From the NCBI RefSeq assembly GCF_000373145.1, contig NZ_KB890624.1, positions 200 to 64,199 on the forward strand: a stretch of DNA of 64,000 nucleotides. Direction: 5' to 3'. The notes under the pieces are model-generated. The model searched no databases and was not told the DNA's origin. It worked only from the letters and a program-made list of their open reading frames with translations. Shown piece after piece: positions 21,645 through 42,155 of this stretch. The translations under genes and the position numbers were made by a program. The DNA comes from Thermus oshimai DSM 12092 (GTDB taxonomy: Bacteria; Deinococcota; Deinococci; Deinococcales; Thermaceae). How positions within the stretch are numbered: the first letter of the stretch is position 1; the number at the start of each line of letters is the position of its first letter.

Positions 21645-21658
21645 GGGACAGGTGTCCC
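21645..21658 (-). promoter_or_regulatory. GGGACA-N2-TGTCCC box upstream of the YwiC-like gene
   Basis: Perfect palindrome apart from the two central bases. It ends on the stop codon of the mini membrane protein gene. Its centre is 20.5 nt from TAAGGT (21631-21626), which sits six nt before the ATG. Confidence 0.6.
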
Positions 21659-25936: not shown

Positions 25937-25950
25937 GGGACAAATGTCAC
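25937..25950 (+). promoter_or_regulatory. GGAC/GTCC box 1 upstream of nirK
   Basis: GGGACAAATGTCAC, one half degenerate. Centre 15 nt before that of box 2. Confidence 0.6.
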
Positions 25951-25951
25951 A

Positions 25952-25965
25952 AGGACACCTGTCCT
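25952..25965 (+). promoter_or_regulatory. GGAC/GTCC box 2 upstream of nirK
   Basis: AGGACACCTGTCCT, perfect half-sites. Its centre is 20.5 nt before TAGGGT (25979-25984), a Thermus-like -10, with no recognisable -35: an activator-type arrangement. Confidence 0.7.
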
Positions 25966-27457: not shown

Positions 27458-27471
27458 AGGACACATGTCCT
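27458..27471 (+). promoter_or_regulatory. GGAC/GTCC box 2 upstream of nirS
   Basis: AGGACACATGTCCT, perfect half-sites, centred 20.5 nt before TATCCT (27485-27490), the same spacing as at nirK. A lone GGACA half follows at 27476-27480. Confidence 0.7.
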
Positions 27472-35217: not shown

Positions 35218-35886
35218 TCATTCGCGGATCCTCCCCTTGAGGGCCTGGGGGTCGGGGATCTCCACCCGCCGGCCCGCAAGCCGGATGAGCCCCTGGCGGT
35301 AGAGGCGGCCCAGGTTGCGGGAGACGGCCTCGGGGACGGTGCCGAGGAGGGCGGCGAGCTCGGGGTTGGTGGGCAGGCTGAACCCCTGCCCCTCGGCCTC
35401 GAGGCGGGCCAGGAGGTACTCGGAAAGCCGTTCCCCCACCTCGTGGAAGACCAGCCGGTCCAGGAGGTGGAGGAGCTGCCCCTGCCGCCGGGCCAGGTAG
35501 CGGAGGAGGGCCTTGGCCAGAGGGGGGCTTGCCTCCAGGAGGCCGAAGAAGACCTCCTTGGGGATGGCCAGGACCTGGCTTTCCTCCAGGGCCTCGGCGC
35601 TGGCGGGGTAGGTGGGGCGCTCCAGGAATAGGGCCACCTCCGCCAGGACCCGGTAGGGGCCCTCCAGGTGGAGCACCACCTGCTTCCGGCCCTCCGGGTC
35701 CAGCTTGTAGACCTTGATGAGGCCCTTTAGGACGGCGTAGAGGTGGGTCACAGGGTCGCCCTCCAGGAAGAGGGTTTCCCCTTTGGCTAGCGTCCTGAAA
35801 TGGGCCGCCCTCTCTAAGGCCTTAAGGCCCTCCGGGGGAAGCCCCCGGAAGAGGGGCACCTGGGCCAGAACGCCCTTGGGGTCCAT
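35218..35886 (-). CDS. dnrT: CRP/FNR-family regulator DnrT
   Basis: A 222-residue regulator: cyclic-nucleotide-binding-type domain (about 10-125), dimer helix (about 125-150) and winged helix ('TNPELAALLGTVPEAVSRNLGRLYRQGLIRL'). The recognition helix keeps E186, S189 and R190, the FNR pattern that reads TTGA half-sites. It has no cysteine at all, so it is not an Fe-S FNR; it may be a Dnr/Nnr-type NO sensor or an unliganded activator. In T. thermophilus DnrS and DnrT activate nitrate respiration genes. It follows dnrS by 5 nt. Confidence 0.88.
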   Translation of the reverse strand: MDPKGVLAQVPLFRGLPPEGLKALERAAHFRTLAKGETLFLEGDPVTHLYAVLKGLIKVYKLDPEGRKQVVLHLEGPYRVLAEVALFLERPTYPASAEALEESQVLAIPKEVFFGLLEASPPLAKALLRYLARRQGQLLHLLDRLVFHEVGERLSEYLLARLEAEGQGFSLPTNPELAALLGTVPEAVSRNLGRLYRQGLIRLAGRRVEIPDPQALKGRIRE

Positions 35887-35891
35887 ACCCT

Positions 35892-37685
35892 TTACCTTAA
35901 GGCCTCCAGGCGGGTCTGGGCCTCCTCAAAGAGGGGTTCCAGCTTGAGGGCGCGGGCGTAGGCCTCCCGGGCCACCTCCTTGTAGCCCAGGGCCTCGGCC
36001 ATCTCCCCCAGGCGGAGGAGGCCGTAAAGGGCCCGTTCCTGCAGGTAGGCCCGTTCCGCCTCCGCCCACTCCCCGTAGGGGTCGTCCCCGAAGAGGGGGC
36101 CCTTGTAGAGCTCCAGGGCTTCCCTAAGGGTTTTGAAGGCCGAAAGCCCCTCCTCCAGGTCCGCCCTGCGCATCAGGGCCTCAAAATGGGCGAAGTCCAG
36201 GTAGTGGGGCTCGGGCAGGTGGAGGCGGTAGTACTCCCCCTCCCGCTCCACGATCCCCGGCAGGGTCTTGCGCAGGTGGTAGACCGCGGTGTAGAGCTCC
36301 TGCTTTGCCCTTTCCGGGGGAAGGCCAGGGAAGAGGCTTTCCGCCAGCTCGTCAGCGAAGAGGGCCCGGTCCTTGTTGGCCAGGAGGAGCTTGAAAAGCC
36401 GCCAGGCGCTCCGCCTTCCGAAGTCCTCGGGCCTGAGCTCCCGCCCCTGGTAGAGGACGCGGAAGCCCCCCAGGGCGTGGACCTCGAGGCGGCTCTCCTT
36501 GGGCTTTTCGGGGAAGAGGAGGGGGGCGGCCAGGCGCTGGAGCCAAAGGGCGAAGGCCGCAGGCCCGGTGGGGGGCTTGGGGGGCCTGGCGTGGAAGAGG
36601 GTTTCCACCGCCACCACCTCCCCCCAGGCCCAAAGGGGCAGGCAGATCCGGGGCCGCCCCTCGGCCTCGGGGCAGTCGGGGAGGCCGTTTTTGAAGCCCA
36701 CCACCTCCCCCCGCCAGGCGGGGCAGTCCTTCATCGCGCACGGGGGCACCGGCCCCAGGCTCAAGGGGGGGCCCTCCTTGGGGACGAGCCGCACCCCCGT
36801 GGCCCCGCTCAGGCGGCGGACCCCCTCCAGAAGGGCCCTTACCCCCTCCGCGGGCACCCCCCGGTGGAGGAGGCGGGTGGCGGCCTTGAGCCCCTCCTCC
36901 CCCAGGCGGGTGAGGAGGGTGTAGAGGGTGCTGGCCAGGAGAGGGCCGATCCGCTCCAGGGCCTCCAGGACCTCCTCGTGGCGCACCCCGGGGTCGCGGG
37001 AGGCCAGGTTCAGGACCCCGATGAGGCCGTGGGGGAGCTCCAGGGGGTAGCAGATGTAGGTCTGGTAGCCCAGGGCCTTGACCTTCTGCCGGAGGTACCG
37101 GCTGTCCTCCCCTAGGGCGTGGGTGAAGAGGGGGGCGCGCTTCAGGGCCACGATCCCCGGGTAGCCCTCCCCCAGCTGGAACCAGGGCCTTTCCAGGAAA
37201 GCCTCCCGGTGGAGCCCCTCGTAGGCGGTGAGGATCAGGTGGTGCCCCTCGGGGTCGGAAAGGAAAAGCTCCGCCGCCTCCATGGAAAGGGCCTGCCGCA
37301 GGACCCCGAGGAAGACCTCGAGGTTCTTAGGGAACTCCTCGGGGTGCTTCAGGAGGTGCTGGGCCAGCCGCGAAAGCTCCAGGAGGAGGTCCGGAGGAGC
37401 CCCCTTTTCCGGGAAGAGCTCCACCAAAAACCCCTCCCCCTCCCGGTAGCCCTGGCACCGGAGGCGGCGGCCCTGCCGGACCAGGGGGGTGCTGGCCCGG
37501 TAGGCCCCCCGCCGGAGCTCCCGGAGCACCGGACAGCGGGGGCAGAGGGGCCGGCCGAAGGGGTCCTTGCCCTCCACCAGGAGGGCGCAGGGGACCTTCG
37601 TCCCTTCCAGGCCCAGGCTGGGGTCGGCCTGGAGGACCGTGGCCAGGCCACGGGCGTCCACTCGCAGGCGGGCTAAGGGCTCCAT
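35892..37685 (-). CDS. dnrS: DnrS: GAF sensor with SARP-type (wHTH-BTAD) output
   Basis: A 597-residue regulator. Residues ~1-90 hold four cysteines (C33, C48, C51, C77). A GAF domain spans ~115-270, a second sensor region ~285-400 has more cysteines ('VPPCAMKDCP', 'DCPEAEGRPRIC'), then a winged helix ('LGGFRVLYQGRELRPEDFGRRSAWRLFKLLLANKDRALFADELAESLFPG') and a BTAD/TPR-like end (~500-597). The output half has the layout of SARP activators. The cysteines may bind a metal or cluster. Divergent from narC with a shared GGAC/GTCC box; TAGGCT lies 8 nt before the ATG. Confidence 0.88.
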   Translation of the reverse strand: MEPLARLRVDARGLATVLQADPSLGLEGTKVPCALLVEGKDPFGRPLCPRCPVLRELRRGAYRASTPLVRQGRRLRCQGYREGEGFLVELFPEKGAPPDLLLELSRLAQHLLKHPEEFPKNLEVFLGVLRQALSMEAAELFLSDPEGHHLILTAYEGLHREAFLERPWFQLGEGYPGIVALKRAPLFTHALGEDSRYLRQKVKALGYQTYICYPLELPHGLIGVLNLASRDPGVRHEEVLEALERIGPLLASTLYTLLTRLGEEGLKAATRLLHRGVPAEGVRALLEGVRRLSGATGVRLVPKEGPPLSLGPVPPCAMKDCPAWRGEVVGFKNGLPDCPEAEGRPRICLPLWAWGEVVAVETLFHARPPKPPTGPAAFALWLQRLAAPLLFPEKPKESRLEVHALGGFRVLYQGRELRPEDFGRRSAWRLFKLLLANKDRALFADELAESLFPGLPPERAKQELYTAVYHLRKTLPGIVEREGEYYRLHLPEPHYLDFAHFEALMRRADLEEGLSAFKTLREALELYKGPLFGDDPYGEWAEAERAYLQERALYGLLRLGEMAEALGYKEVAREAYARALKLEPLFEEAQTRLEALR

Positions 37686-37711: not shown

Positions 37712-37725
37712 AGGACAGATGTCCC
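37712..37725. promoter_or_regulatory. GGAC/GTCC box between dnrS and narC
   Basis: AGGACAGATGTCCC. The centre is 19.5 nt from TAGGCT (37699-37694) of dnrS. On the nar side no good -10 was found at that spacing, so its role for narC is less clear. Confidence 0.65.
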
Positions 37726-37779
37726 AGCGCCCGCCAGCCTGCGCAAGGCCTCCCCCTCACCCTGAAGGCGGAGGTGAGG

Positions 37780-38562
37780 ATGAAGCGAGCCCTTATCGCC
37801 CTGGCCTTCCTCCTGGGTTTAGGCCTGGCCCAGGACGGGAAGGCGCTTTACGAAAGGCAGTGCGCCGCCTGTCACGGGCCCACGGGGCAGGGGGTCCCCG
37901 GGGCCATCCCGCCCCTGGCTGGGAACCCCCGGGTCCAGGACGAGGCCTACGTGGTCAAGGTGGTGCGGGAGGGGCTTTCCGGGCCCCTGGAGGTGAACGG
38001 GACGGCCTACAACGGGGTCATGCCCCCCATGCCCCAGGTCTCCGAAGGGGAGGCCCGGGCCATCGCCCAGTACCTGGCGGGCCTGGGGGGAGCCCCAAGG
38101 GAGGCCGCCCCCAAGCCCCAGCTGGCCGGGGACCCCGCCTTGGGCCGGGCCCTTTACCTGGGCCAGAAGGCCTTCCAAAACGGGGGTGCCCCCTGCCAGG
38201 CCTGCCACACCGTGGCCGGGGTGGGCTTTCTGGGTGGGGGGTCCATGGGGAAGGACCTCACGGACGCGGCCCAGCGCCTAGGGGGCGAGGCGGGCCTTAC
38301 CGCTCTTCTGCAAAACCCCGCCTTCCCGGTGATGCGGGCCGCCTACCAGGGCAAGCCCCTCACCGAGGCCGAGGCCAGCGCCCTGGCGGCCTTTTTGGTG
38401 CAGGTTTCTGAGGAGGCGCCCAGGCCTTCCTCCCTCTACCTGGGGCGGTTCCTGGTGGCCGGCCTGGTCCTCCTTGGGGTGCTCCTCCTCTACCAGGCCG
38501 CCCTGTGGCAGCTCCGCCCGCAAAGCCTTGCCGAGCGCATCCGCAAAGAGCTCAGGAGGTAG
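37780..38562 (+). CDS. narC: Diheme cytochrome c of the nitrate reductase operon
   Basis: A 260-residue periplasmic cytochrome c with signal peptide (about 1-17), two heme c sites (CAACH and CQACH), and a C-terminal membrane anchor (about residues 222-242). In Thermus thermophilus NarC is required for the membrane nitrate reductase and passes electrons in its complex. The ATG at 37780 follows GGAGGTG; a GTG 6 nt earlier is possible. First gene of narCGHJIK1K2; narG begins 2 nt after its stop. Confidence 0.92.
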
Positions 38563-38564
38563 AC

Positions 38565-41500
38565 ATGAAGGACTGGATCAAGGAGGTTGAAAGCCCGGCG
38601 GAACGGAAGTGGGAGGAGTTTTACCGCAACCGCTTCCAGCACGACAAGCGGGTGCGGACCACCCACGGGGTGAACTGCACCGGTTCCTGCTCCTGGGAGG
38701 TCTTCGTCAAGGACGGGGTGGTGACCTGGGAGCTCCAGGCCACGGACTACCCCAGCCTCGAGGCCGGCCTGCCCCCCTACGAGCCCCGGGGCTGCCAGCG
38801 GGGCATCAGCTTCAGCTGGTACCTCTACAGCCCCATCCGGGTGAAGTACCCCTACGCCAAGGGGGCCCTTTTGGACCTCTGGCGGGAGGCCAAGAAGGCC
38901 CACCCCGACCCCGTGGCCGCCTGGGAGTCCATCCAGAACGACCCCCACAAGCGCAAGCGCTACCAGAAGGCCCGGGGGAAGGGGGGCTTCCGCCGCGCCT
39001 CCTGGGAGGAGGTCCTGGAGCTCATCGCCGCGGCCGTGGTCTCCACCGTGCGCCGCTACGGTCCGGACCGGGTCATCGGCTTCTCGCCCATCCCCGCCAT
39101 GAGCCAGATCTCCTACGCCGCGGGGAGCCGCTTCCTCTCCCTCCTCGGGGGGGTCCCCATGAGCTTCTACGACTGGTACTGCGACCTCCCCAACGCCTCC
39201 CCTGAGATCTGGGGCGAGCAGACGGACGTCCACGAGTCCGCGGACTGGTACAACGCCCGCTTCATCGCGGTCATGGGCTCCAACCTCAACATGACCCGCA
39301 CCCCCGACACCCACTTCATCGCCGAGGTGCGGCACGCGGGGGCCAAGCTCACCGTCTTCAGCCCCGACTTCTCCCAGGTGTCCAAGTACGCGGACTGGTG
39401 GATCCCCATCCACCCCGGCCAGGACGGGGCCTTCTGGATGGCGGTGAACCACGTGATCCTCAAGGAGTACTACGCGGACCGGGAGGTGCCCTACTTCCGG
39501 GACTACCTGAAGCGCTACACCGACGCCCCCTTCCTGATCGAGATCCAGGAGGGCCGGCCGGGCCGCTACCTGCGGGCGGACCAGCTTGCGGCCTACGCCG
39601 AGGAGGAGAACGGGGCCTTCAAGCTCCTCATCTGGGACGAGGAGAAGGGCCCCAGGATGCCGGGCGGCACCTTGGGCTTCCGCTGGGCCAAGGAGAAGGG
39701 GAAGTGGAACCTGAAGCTGGAAGACCCCCGGACCGGCGAGCCCCTGAACCCCCGCCTCACCCTGCTGGGGGCCGAGGACGAGGTGCTTTTGGTGGAGTTT
39801 GACGACTTCGCGAGCGATCGGAAGCTGAAGCGGGGCGTGCCCGTGAAGTACGTCACCACCAAGGACGGCCGGCGGGTGGCGGTGGCCACGGTCTTTGACC
39901 TCCTCATGGCCCAGTTCGGCGTGGGCCGGGGCCTGCCCGGGGACTACCCCAAGGGCTACGAGGACGACCTGCCCTACACCCCCCTCTGGCAGGAGAAGTG
40001 GACCGGGATCCACCGGGATACCCTCCTCCGCTACGCCCGGGCCTGGGCGGAGAACGGGGCCAAGACGGGGGGCAAGAACCTCATCATCATCGGGGCGGGG
40101 ATCAACCACTGGTACCACAACAACCTCATGTACCGGGCGGGCATCGTGGCCCTCATGCTCACGGGAAGCGTGGGGGTGAACGGCGGGGGCCTGGCCCACT
40201 ACGTGGGGCAGGAGAAGCTGGCCAACCAGGCCTCCTGGGGGCCCATCGCCTTCGCCACGGACTGGGGCTACCCCCCGAGGCAGCAGAACACCCCCTCCTT
40301 CCACTACGTCCACTCCGACCAGTGGCGCTACGAGCGGGGCTTCTCCGCCTACGACAAGGCGGCGGAACCCCTTTCCGACCACACCATTGACCACCAGGTG
40401 CGGGCGGTGCGCAAGGGGTGGCTCCCCTTCTTCCCCCAGTTCAACAAAAGCCCCCTGGAGGTGGTGCGCGAGGCCGAGGCCAAGGGGGCCAAGACCGAGG
40501 CCGAGATCGTCCAGTACGTGGTGGAGGCCCTGAAGCGGGGCGAGCTCAGGTTCGCGGTGGAAGACCCCGACGCCCCCGAGAACTGGCCCAGGGTCTGGTT
40601 CATCTGGCGGGGGAACGCCATCGGCACCAGCGCCAAGGGGCACGAGTACTTCCTCAAGCACTACCTGGGCACCCACACCAACGCCATCGCCGAGGAGAAG
40701 GCCGAGGGGCACGTGCAGGAGGTGGTCTACCGCAAGCCCGCCCCCGAGGGGAAGCTGGACCTGGTGGTGGACCTCAACTTCCGCATGGACACCAGCGCCC
40801 TCTACTCCGACATCGTCCTGCCCGCCGCCACCTGGTACGAGAAGGACGACCTGAACACCACCGACCTGCACACCTTCATCAACCCCATGCAGGCCGCGGT
40901 GCCCCCCACCTGGGAGTCCAAGCCCGACTGGGAGATCTTCAAGGCCATCGTCAAGAAGGTCTCCGAGCTGGCCAGGGTCCACCTGCCCCACCCGGTGAAG
41001 GACCTGGTCATGATCCCCCTCCAGCACGACACCCCGGACGAGCTGGCCCAGCTCGAGGACCGGGACTGGAAGAAGGGCGAGGTGGAGCCCATCCCCGGCA
41101 AGACCATGCCCAAGTTCCGGGTGGTGGAGCGGGACTACACCAAGCTCTACGAGAAGTTCGTCACCTTGGGACCTGGGGTGGAGAAGAACGGGGTGGGCAT
41201 GCACGGCCTCACCATCCCCGCGGAGGACTTCTACCGGGAACTGGCGGAACGGCAGCCCCGGCTCTACGACGGGGAGAAGCGGCCGAGCCTCGAGGAGCCC
41301 CGCCAGGTGGCCGAGGCCATCCTCTTCCTGGACCCCGTGTCCAACGGGGAGCTGGCCTACCGGGCCTTCCTGGACGAGGAGAAGAAGACCGGGGTGCAGC
41401 TCACCGACCTGGCGGAGGGCAACCGCCACGTGCGCATCTCCTTCAAGGACCTGGTGGCCCAGCCCCGCCGCCAGCTCACCACCCCCACCTGGAGCGCCAT

Positions 41501-42155
41501 CATCAACCACGGCCGGGCCTACAGCCCCTACACCCTGAACGTGGAGCGCTTGATCCCCTGGCGCACCCTCACGGGCCGGCAGCACTTCTACCTGGACCAC
41601 CCCAACTACCTCCGCTTCGGGGAGCACCTGCCCACCTACAAGCCCCGGCCGGACGTGGCCATGCTCCAGGAAACGGAGCTCTCCCTCAAGGAGGCCCAGG
41701 GCAAGCTCATGAACTACATCACCCCCCACGGGAAGTGGTCCATCCACTCCACCTACTCCGAGAACCACCGCATGATGACCCTCTCCCGGGGCGGGTACCC
41801 CATCTGGCTCAACGACAAGGACGCGGCCGAGCTGGGCATCAAGGACAACGACTGGGTGGAGCTCTACAACGACAACGGGGTTTTCGTCCAGCGGGCCATC
41901 GTTTCCAGCCGCATCCCCCGGGGTACGGTCTTCGTCTACCACGCCACCGAGCGCACGGTGGGCATCCCCAAGAGTCCCTTGAGGGGCAAGCGGGCGGGGA
42001 TGAACAACTCCATCACCCGGGCCCGCCTGAAGCCCGTCCTCATGTCCGGCGGCTACGCCCAGTTCACCTACGCCTTCAACTACTGGGGCCCCGTGGGGGT
42101 GAACCGGGACACCTGGGTCTACGTGCGCAAGCTGGAGAAAGCCCCTGAGTGGTAA
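38565..42155 (+). CDS. narG: Respiratory nitrate reductase alpha subunit
   Basis: A 1196-residue bis-MGD molybdoenzyme reducing nitrate to nitrite. The FS0 cluster ligands are H34, C38, C42 and C77, and the Mo ligand is D221 in '[12 protein letters not shown]', at almost the same numbers as in E. coli NarG. The usual twin-arginine remnant of NarG N-termini is not evident. Ribosome site AGGAGGT. About 50 residues shorter than E. coli NarG, otherwise complete. Confidence 0.97.

Follow-up and report, generated by a model that had tools for sequence, protein, structure and literature searches.

DnrS of Thermus oshimai, a SARP-type regulator with two conserved four-cysteine sites and a possible one-component oxygen switch of nitrate respiration

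Introduction

The locus described here raises the question of how DnrS, a regulator encoded divergently from the nitrate respiration genes of Thermus oshimai, could perceive oxygen and pass that signal on to transcription. The protein is an orthologue of DnrS of Thermus thermophilus, where dnrST forms an operon on the nitrate respiration conjugative element and is divergent from nar, and the named plasmid copies of that species are 72–74% identical to it. According to those parts of the published accounts that were available, transcription of nar and dnr depends on DnrS, oxygen alters the conformation of the protein and renders it protease-sensitive, and no active protein was obtained from E. 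coli. In the same publications it is named a (proposed) oxygen sensor of unknown mechanism, and one of them places 'a redox centre' in the N-terminal GAF domain. The idea of DnrS as a sensor is therefore already in print, and the view, stated in the original prediction, that earlier work saw DnrS chiefly as the partner of DnrT is not supported.

The published descriptions, within the portions available, give DnrS as GAF plus BTAD only; a PAS domain, a second GAF domain and a SARP operator were not found there, and the literature covered (which excludes the 2007 primary paper) yielded no mention of the cysteines or of a tie to SARP proteins. The gene, and DnrS as a proposed oxygen sensor, are known. 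Within the reach of our searches, the novelty lies in the mapping of the cysteines to two sites, in the PAS domain, the second GAF domain and the candidate operator, and in the wider extent of the family; relative to the T. thermophilus descriptions these domains, cysteine sites and operator are additions made here. We describe them for a 64,000-nucleotide stretch of the T. oshimai DSM 12092 genome (the window) and for homologous loci, designated L followed by a number, in genomes designated G.

Results

Domain order of DnrS

The reading frame originally assigned to dnrS was correct in position, strand and length (Table 1), and DnrS has one match in the T. oshimai genome. A Pfam scan of the protein places GAF (residues 128–252) and BTAD (496–592) above cut-off, as had been claimed. 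A winged helix had been claimed as well; in DnrS itself it is sub-threshold (PF00486, E 0.0075), but it passes the Pfam cut-off in L067 and L046, though not in L066, the third homologue scanned, and is recovered at the level of fold. In the AlphaFold2 model (21 sequences, without metal; mean pLDDT 88.9, pTM 0.65) the C-terminal part aligns by VIA-align with EmbR (2ff4_B; Z 15.8, rmsd 2.7, 196 aligned, 23%) and with AfsR (8k60_I; Z 15.3, rmsd 2.7, 195 aligned, 26%). DnrS thus has a winged helix directly before a BTAD domain, the arrangement of a SARP-type activator.

Table 1. Features of the dnrS region, in window coordinates
Feature	Position	Strand	Remarks
dnrT	35218-35886	-	Crp/Fnr-family regulator, 222 aa, no cysteine; downstream of dnrS
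dnrS	35892-37685	-	597 aa; PAS - GAF1 - GAF2(Cys4) - SARP (winged helix + BTAD)
SARP output, residues 397-597	35895-36497	-	winged helix + BTAD; PF03704 E 6.7e-9
GAF2, residues 258-392	36510-36914	-	degenerate GAF; homologue sequence matches and fold
Central Cys4 site (GAF2), C-x4-C-x16-C-x9-C	36642-36740	-	four conserved codons
C348 codon	36642-36644	-	central Cys4 site
C338 codon	36672-36674	-	central Cys4 site
C321 codon	36723-36725	-	central Cys4 site
C316 codon	36738-36740	-	central Cys4 site
GAF1, residues 97-262 (about 95-262 by VIA-align)	36900-37397	-	PF13185 E 2.4e-9
C212 codon	37050-37052	-	not conserved; S, V or L in 12/47
PAS domain, residues 1-96	37398-37685	-	PF00989 in homologue, profile match, model
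PAS Cys4 site, C-x14-C-x2-C-x25-C	37455-37589	-	four conserved codons
C77 codon	37455-37457	-	PAS Cys4 site
C51 codon	37533-37535	-	PAS Cys4 site
C48 codon	37542-37544	-	PAS Cys4 site
C33 codon	37587-37589	-	PAS Cys4 site
GGACA-N2-TGTCC palindrome (GGACANNTGTCC)	37713-37724	.	dnrS-narC intergenic region; exact in window
Candidate DnrS/SARP operator of nar, GCCAGCC + GCAAGGC 10 bp apart	37733-37749	+	alignment with homologous promoters
narC	37774-38562	+	cytochrome c; divergent from dnrS
narG	38562-42155	+	respiratory nitrate reductase alpha subunit; TIGR01580 1520.8 bits, cut-off 1084.15

The N-terminal region, which had been described simply as cysteine-rich, does hold four cysteines and can be refined to a PAS domain. 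PF00989 is above cut-off in the homologue L067 (not in L066), a family profile weakly matches, over its first 36 positions, PAS-containing sensors of known structure (E 0.003), and the order of strands and helices in the model agrees. The following domain, GAF1, aligns with 3ci6_A (VIA-align Z 18.5, rmsd 3.6, 155 aligned). Residues 258–392 are predicted to have a GAF fold as well, supported by sequence in the homologues and by a fold match that is weak but consistent. In the Chloroflexota homologues L066 and L067, GAF_2 is matched in two stretches, and GAF_3 appears below cut-off at 307–438 of L067. When folded alone the segment gives a pLDDT of 86.2, and the top Foldseek matches are mostly GAF or phytochrome proteins at E 6e-4 and weaker, the first having a TM-score of 0.62 by query length. 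Against solved structures the GAF2 profile gives nothing convincing, and the DnrS sequence gives six weak matches only, GAF- and EmbR-type included.

The order PAS-GAF-GAF-winged helix-BTAD is kept in Chloroflexota homologues at about 30% identity. In the model, the domain order and a long linker helix are shared with bacteriophytochromes and PDE6 (PAS-GAF-PHY and tandem GAF respectively). Whole-chain TM-scores by query length are 0.20–0.28 in the best 50 rows, and we rejected a phytochrome-like light sensor because only the arrangement matches. The Pfam scan contains no kinase family and neither a cNMP-binding fold nor a Crp helix-turn-helix, so that DnrS does not qualify as an oxygen sensor of the FNR/CRP family.

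Two conserved four-cysteine sites

The cysteines predicted at positions 33, 48, 51 and 77 are present, and the full set of nine also includes 212, 316, 321, 338 and 348. Further cysteines in the middle of the protein had been noted too; they are real, but they make up a second four-cysteine site in the degenerate GAF2 and not in the GAF domain named earlier, whose sole cysteine is C212. In an alignment of 47 sequences (the window DnrS and 46 from Deinococcota, excluding the fragment L043 and L001, which is identical to the window) the central four are found in 47/47 and the N-terminal four in 42/47, a pattern that is not due to chance, while C212 is found in 35/47. A wider alignment of 68 sequences, in which many loci come from the same genomes and from which L043, L001 and the duplicates L070–L074 were excluded, gives 63–64/68 for the PAS set and 67–68/68 for the central set. 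In a chosen subset of 35 rows that includes Chloroflexota, all four PAS cysteines are present in 26 rows and all four central cysteines in 33. From set A2 the frameshifted gene L053 was excluded.

Each site can be lost separately. Six rows, namely four Deinococcus plasmids, L039 and L113, lack the PAS set along with the domain, in whole or for the most part, and retain the central set, and three Chloroflexota rows (L110, L111 and L112) have a partial PAS set. Conversely L083 keeps all four PAS cysteines and has lost the central set, which is also partial in L112. For C316 of L039 one alignment has R, another a gap and two more a cysteine, and we take the R or gap reading as an alignment shift. 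On a GAF1 tree of all 35 rows three changes are required to account for the PAS-less rows, the number forced by the well-supported branches; the places of L113 and L083 in it are unsure because of their long branches.

The alignments presented here show that eight of the cysteines fall into two separate conserved four-cysteine sites, and that the predicted PAS domain carries four conserved cysteines, as does that of NreB. The family alignments contain no invariant His, which speaks against a His-ligated haem. As there are two conserved sets of four and four-cysteine PAS oxygen sensors exist, the original proposal of a metal or Fe-S site at these cysteines is a sound inference, and in this respect the conserved cysteines and the NreB precedent support it; that DnrS might sense NO, also part of the proposal, received no specific support in the analysis.

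Association of DnrS with narG

The linkage seen in the window can be followed through 111 Deinococcota genomes, in which narG was called at E <= 1e-100 and DnrS, with an alignment as query, at E <= 1e-40. There are 43 genomes with narG and 44 with DnrS, and DnrS is found in all 43 of the narG genomes as against 1/68 of those without (G065); a single-sequence query finds DnrS in 43 genomes, missing G091. This co-occurrence partly reflects linkage, since both genes usually share one locus. In DnrT the cNMP-binding fold and the Crp helix-turn-helix are both present. DnrT-like proteins (E <= 1e-30) occur in 39/43 narG genomes and in 23 genomes without narG, and outside Thermus the DnrT-like gene often does not adjoin dnrS in the stretches examined.

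G065 (locus L009) retains dnrS and dnrT but yielded no narG and has a short match to narC, and it may preserve the remains of a nar cluster since lost. On a Thermus parvatiensis plasmid (L019, L053) the locus looks decayed, as dnrS is matched in two frames and narC and a FeoB-like gene are in pieces. At L049 (11800–13691) two dnrT match pieces lie about 900 bases apart, as if interrupted.

Relatives outside Thermus

Nearly full-length DnrS-like proteins also occur in Dehalococcoidia (the class of G112), with nine in 8/393 genomes, one of them without PAS. Of 11 Chloroflexota loci three have a strong narG match nearby (L067, L109, L113) and one a weak match (L107); the other seven have no narG in the stretch examined, and several of these are on short contigs. 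The original view that SARP outputs are mainly actinomycete needs to be widened, since SARP-like outputs are also widely found elsewhere, as in one Chloroflexota class where many raw profile matches are confined to the SARP part. A search of viral contigs with DnrS gave no relative.

Searching Dehalococcoidia-class genomes with a profile of the DnrS PAS domain gives matches in 45/197 (E <= 1e-5), at least seven of them through DnrS-type proteins. Thirteen Chloroflexota PAS proteins not of the DnrS type, taken from the best loci of this search, have C33, C48 and C51 in 13/13 and a cysteine at 77 in 0/13; the first count is partly built in, as the profile rewards the first three cysteines, and the result at 77 is unbiased. 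In sequence terms the cysteine at position 77 is thus special to DnrS when compared with these Chloroflexota PAS proteins. A LuxR-type helix-turn-helix is present in seven of the eight such proteins scanned, the eighth (L122) being cut by its contig end. The PAS-LuxR proteins with the three-cysteine motif are L123, L125, L126, L128, L130, L133 and L136, the motif in L123 being C-x14-C-x3-C. The central-domain profile gave seven matches in 6/197 genomes, six of which are in DnrS-type proteins already known; this search is not exhaustive, because it missed the DnrS of G137 (L109), which has all four cysteines.

The PAS-less homologues on Deinococcus plasmids (L044–L047) adjoin a NasC-like molybdenum enzyme that, at 787 bits, falls short of the 1100-bit cut-off. 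Its neighbours are 4Fe-4S and Rieske genes and a gene of the NarK type, together with DUF6755, which is annotated in three of the four. A membrane protein at L044 is weakly NarI-like, just below cut-off, and the enzyme is possibly an unusual membrane-bound nitrate reductase. We considered the PAS site as a simple marker of respiratory versus assimilatory nitrate reductase, a division that the four Deinococcus rows do fit with an enzyme that is itself ambiguous, and dropped it, as L039 and L113 lie near narGH-type genes without the PAS site.

The dnrS–narC intergenic region

A palindrome like GGACANNTGTCC is found in 23/23 dnrS upstream regions, several of them from the same species, with 9–11 of 11 fixed positions matched; a score of at least 9 was reached in 95/4600 shuffles and a score of 11 in none. 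Allowing one mismatch, the whole window contains eight such sites as against an expectation of 2.18, and 100 shuffles never gave that many. Palindrome sites are located at 21646–21657, 25938–25964, 27459–27470 and 37713–37724, with a tandem pair at 25938/25953, and, as we read the ORF map, several of them immediately precede genes of the denitrification region. Among 20 further loci, exact matches to GGACANNTGTCC include only one right upstream of dnrS, in L036 (at 6111, 40 bases from the dnrS start). We have not adopted the palindrome as a DnrT site. The publication, in the text available, assigns to NsrR the motif CTTGACCNNGGTCATGG, which differs from GGACANNTGTCC and overlaps the DnrT footprint. 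Moreover, L057 retains the palindrome, and this locus is apparently the one belonging to G043, a genome (85% complete) without a DnrT-like match.

On the nar side of the palindrome there are signs of direct repeats. SARP operators are described, in the parts of the sources available, as heptamers with 4-bp spacers, 11 bp apart, the PimR box being CGGCAAG and a second PimR operator being spaced by 10 bp (PMC5930380, PMC10936776). A distance of 8 bp to the -10 element has been reported as well. Self-matches were counted in 21 dnrS–nar promoters, L025 and L058 being excluded, after the sequences had been viewed, because no narC lies beside dnrS; the counting window was likewise chosen after viewing, and its length was varied in a later check. 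At an 11-bp offset there are 188/399 matches against 113.6 expected (sd 8.7), a number reached in 0/1000 dinucleotide shuffles, and 12 representatives below 70% identity give 110/228 against 66.0 expected, again with 0/1000 shuffles as high. Offset 10 is weaker (z 3.3–3.8) and offsets 9 and 12–15 are not raised; longer windows retain the 11-bp signal (z 4.6–6.4), which is absent on the dnrS side and in the next 30 bases.

The 13 promoters outside Thermus contribute most of the signal (123 matches at offset 11 against 64.9 expected, z 7.8); one of them, in L020, has CTGTAAG twice, and in a Meiothermus promoter the 11-bp repeats are exact. In the eight Thermus promoters there are 74 matches against 51.6 at offset 10 (z 4.1) and 65 against 49.3 at offset 11 (z 3.1). 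We take this as good evidence, at the level of the family and from promoter alignments, for direct repeats of the SARP type to the nar side of the palindrome, which stand out clearly in the promoters from outside Thermus and less strongly in those of Thermus. In the window the corresponding boxes constitute a candidate DnrS/SARP operator; they match at 5/7 positions, no better than pairs at other offsets, and so are not distinct. When a box profile from the other promoters was scanned over the window, its own site was not among the top 15 and no convincing further sites appeared.

Discussion

Our best reading is that DnrS is a nar-linked one-component activator of respiratory nitrate reductase. 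As to how it works, we favor an oxygen switch like NreB contained in one polypeptide, with an oxygen-labile Fe-S cluster in the PAS domain, a second metal site in GAF2 and a SARP activator as output, and we would put the probability of this analysis at about 0.45. Under anaerobic conditions C33, C48, C51 and C77 would hold the cluster, which would fix a PAS-GAF-GAF dimer in a form whose two SARP domains bind next to each other on the direct repeats and bring in RNA polymerase. Oxygen would destroy or oxidise the cluster, whereupon the sensor part would open, the SARP pair would release the DNA and DnrS would be degraded. The central site, constant in the family, would be a second metal site that may either hold zinc for stability or take in an additional redox or N-oxide signal. 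The mode of action would resemble that of FNR or NreBC, in one polypeptide with a SARP output.

The lability of the PAS cluster is proposed because of the NreB precedent and the published oxygen sensitivity of DnrS. Speaking for the proposal as a whole are the conservation of the cysteines, the separate loss of the two sites, the SARP fold, the direct repeats, the co-occurrence with narG and the oxygen-dependent protease sensitivity that has been published. NreB of staphylococci, in the account available in part, has a four-cysteine PAS domain with an oxygen-labile [4Fe-4S] cluster and controls nar (PMC4601167), and it is this four-cysteine PAS input governing nar that DnrS would share with NreBC. 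However, NreB, a histidine kinase, works through a separate response regulator, whereas DnrS is a one-component protein with a SARP output, and the bound cluster is published for NreB while the likeness of DnrS is one of sequence; DnrS is not a NreB.

In its output DnrS resembles AfsR, EmbR and PimR, with which it shares the fold of winged helix and BTAD. The 11-bp direct repeats outside Thermus, with boxes CGGTAAG and GGGCAAG, recall PimR and its CGGCAAG, and the 10-bp spacing at the window candidate has a parallel in the 10-bp-spaced operator of PimR. On the other hand, the SARP domain of DnrS is C-terminal, behind PAS-GAF-GAF, whereas the large actinomycete SARPs, as far as the available descriptions go, carry their extra domains C-terminally, and the target of DnrS is respiration whereas those SARPs are concerned with antibiotics.

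The strongest result against a PAS cluster as the switch is provided by L039 and L113, which are near nar genes and have the central site with the PAS site gone. Since they lie near narGH-type genes, the PAS site cannot be the only oxygen input of the family, and one may ask whether the central GAF2 site is the sensor of O2 or N-oxides, with the PAS domain as an accessory input. We regard this as improbable, even though it is the only cysteine set present in 47/47 sequences, is complete in 33/35 rows and is kept by L039 and L113, and although Fe-S clusters have been published, in the text available, on a four-cysteine set (AirS) and in a GAF domain (CSK, PMC6949291). The central set is also kept beside the Deinococcus NasC-like enzymes, and L083 has lost it with the PAS set intact. 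AirS of Staphylococcus aureus, for which redox sensing by a four-cysteine [2Fe-2S] site is described in the part consulted, is like DnrS in having a four-cysteine set but is a kinase with other spacing, its C-x7-C-x-C-x17-C differing from the C-x4-C-x16-C-x9-C of GAF2; neither DnrS spacing matches AirS, the sole published motif compared. The persistence of the central site beside the Deinococcus enzyme suits a structural metal better than an oxygen switch. Extended to both sites, this would mean that each holds structural zinc and that DnrS senses something else, or that its oxygen sensitivity is a matter of instability, for which retention of the central site where the PAS site is gone and the precedent of zinc in the PAS domain of WalK (PMC6624279, available in part) can be cited. 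We hold this to be just as improbable, as the published oxygen-driven conformational change and the lack of active protein from E. coli are, in our reading of the passages available, more typical of a labile cofactor.

More doubtful still is oxygen sensing by GAF1 through a pocket of its own (for haem, flavin or another ligand), with the cysteines secondary. The available publications do name the GAF domain, and GAF1 has many invariant columns; yet none of these is His or Cys, C212 being present in only 35/47 sequences, and a cofactor is not shown in the literature as far as it was available. Least probable of all, to the point of being scarcely credible, is a metal-free thiol/disulfide switch within one of the sites, which the CxxC pair C48/C51 could accommodate, as four conserved positions per site would fit metal ligation better.

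Returning to the PAS-based oxygen switch, a bolder form of it, which we think unlikely as yet, is that DnrS is the founding member of a family, extending over Deinococcota and Chloroflexota, of one-component redox sensors with two metal sites. These would be composed of a three-cysteine PAS domain like that of the Chloroflexota PAS-LuxR proteins, to which a fourth ligand is added, a four-cysteine GAF domain and a SARP output. Such a protein would be a master switch of nar that is neither an FNR nor a kinase, responding to oxygen through the PAS cluster and to a second signal through a cluster in GAF2. The four-cysteine sites, the domain map, the naturally occurring variants without PAS and the candidate operator make the question of oxygen sensing by DnrS directly testable. 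If the reading is true, an Fe-S sensor coupled to a SARP domain would join the known oxygen switches, and a single regulator would track narG across a phylum.
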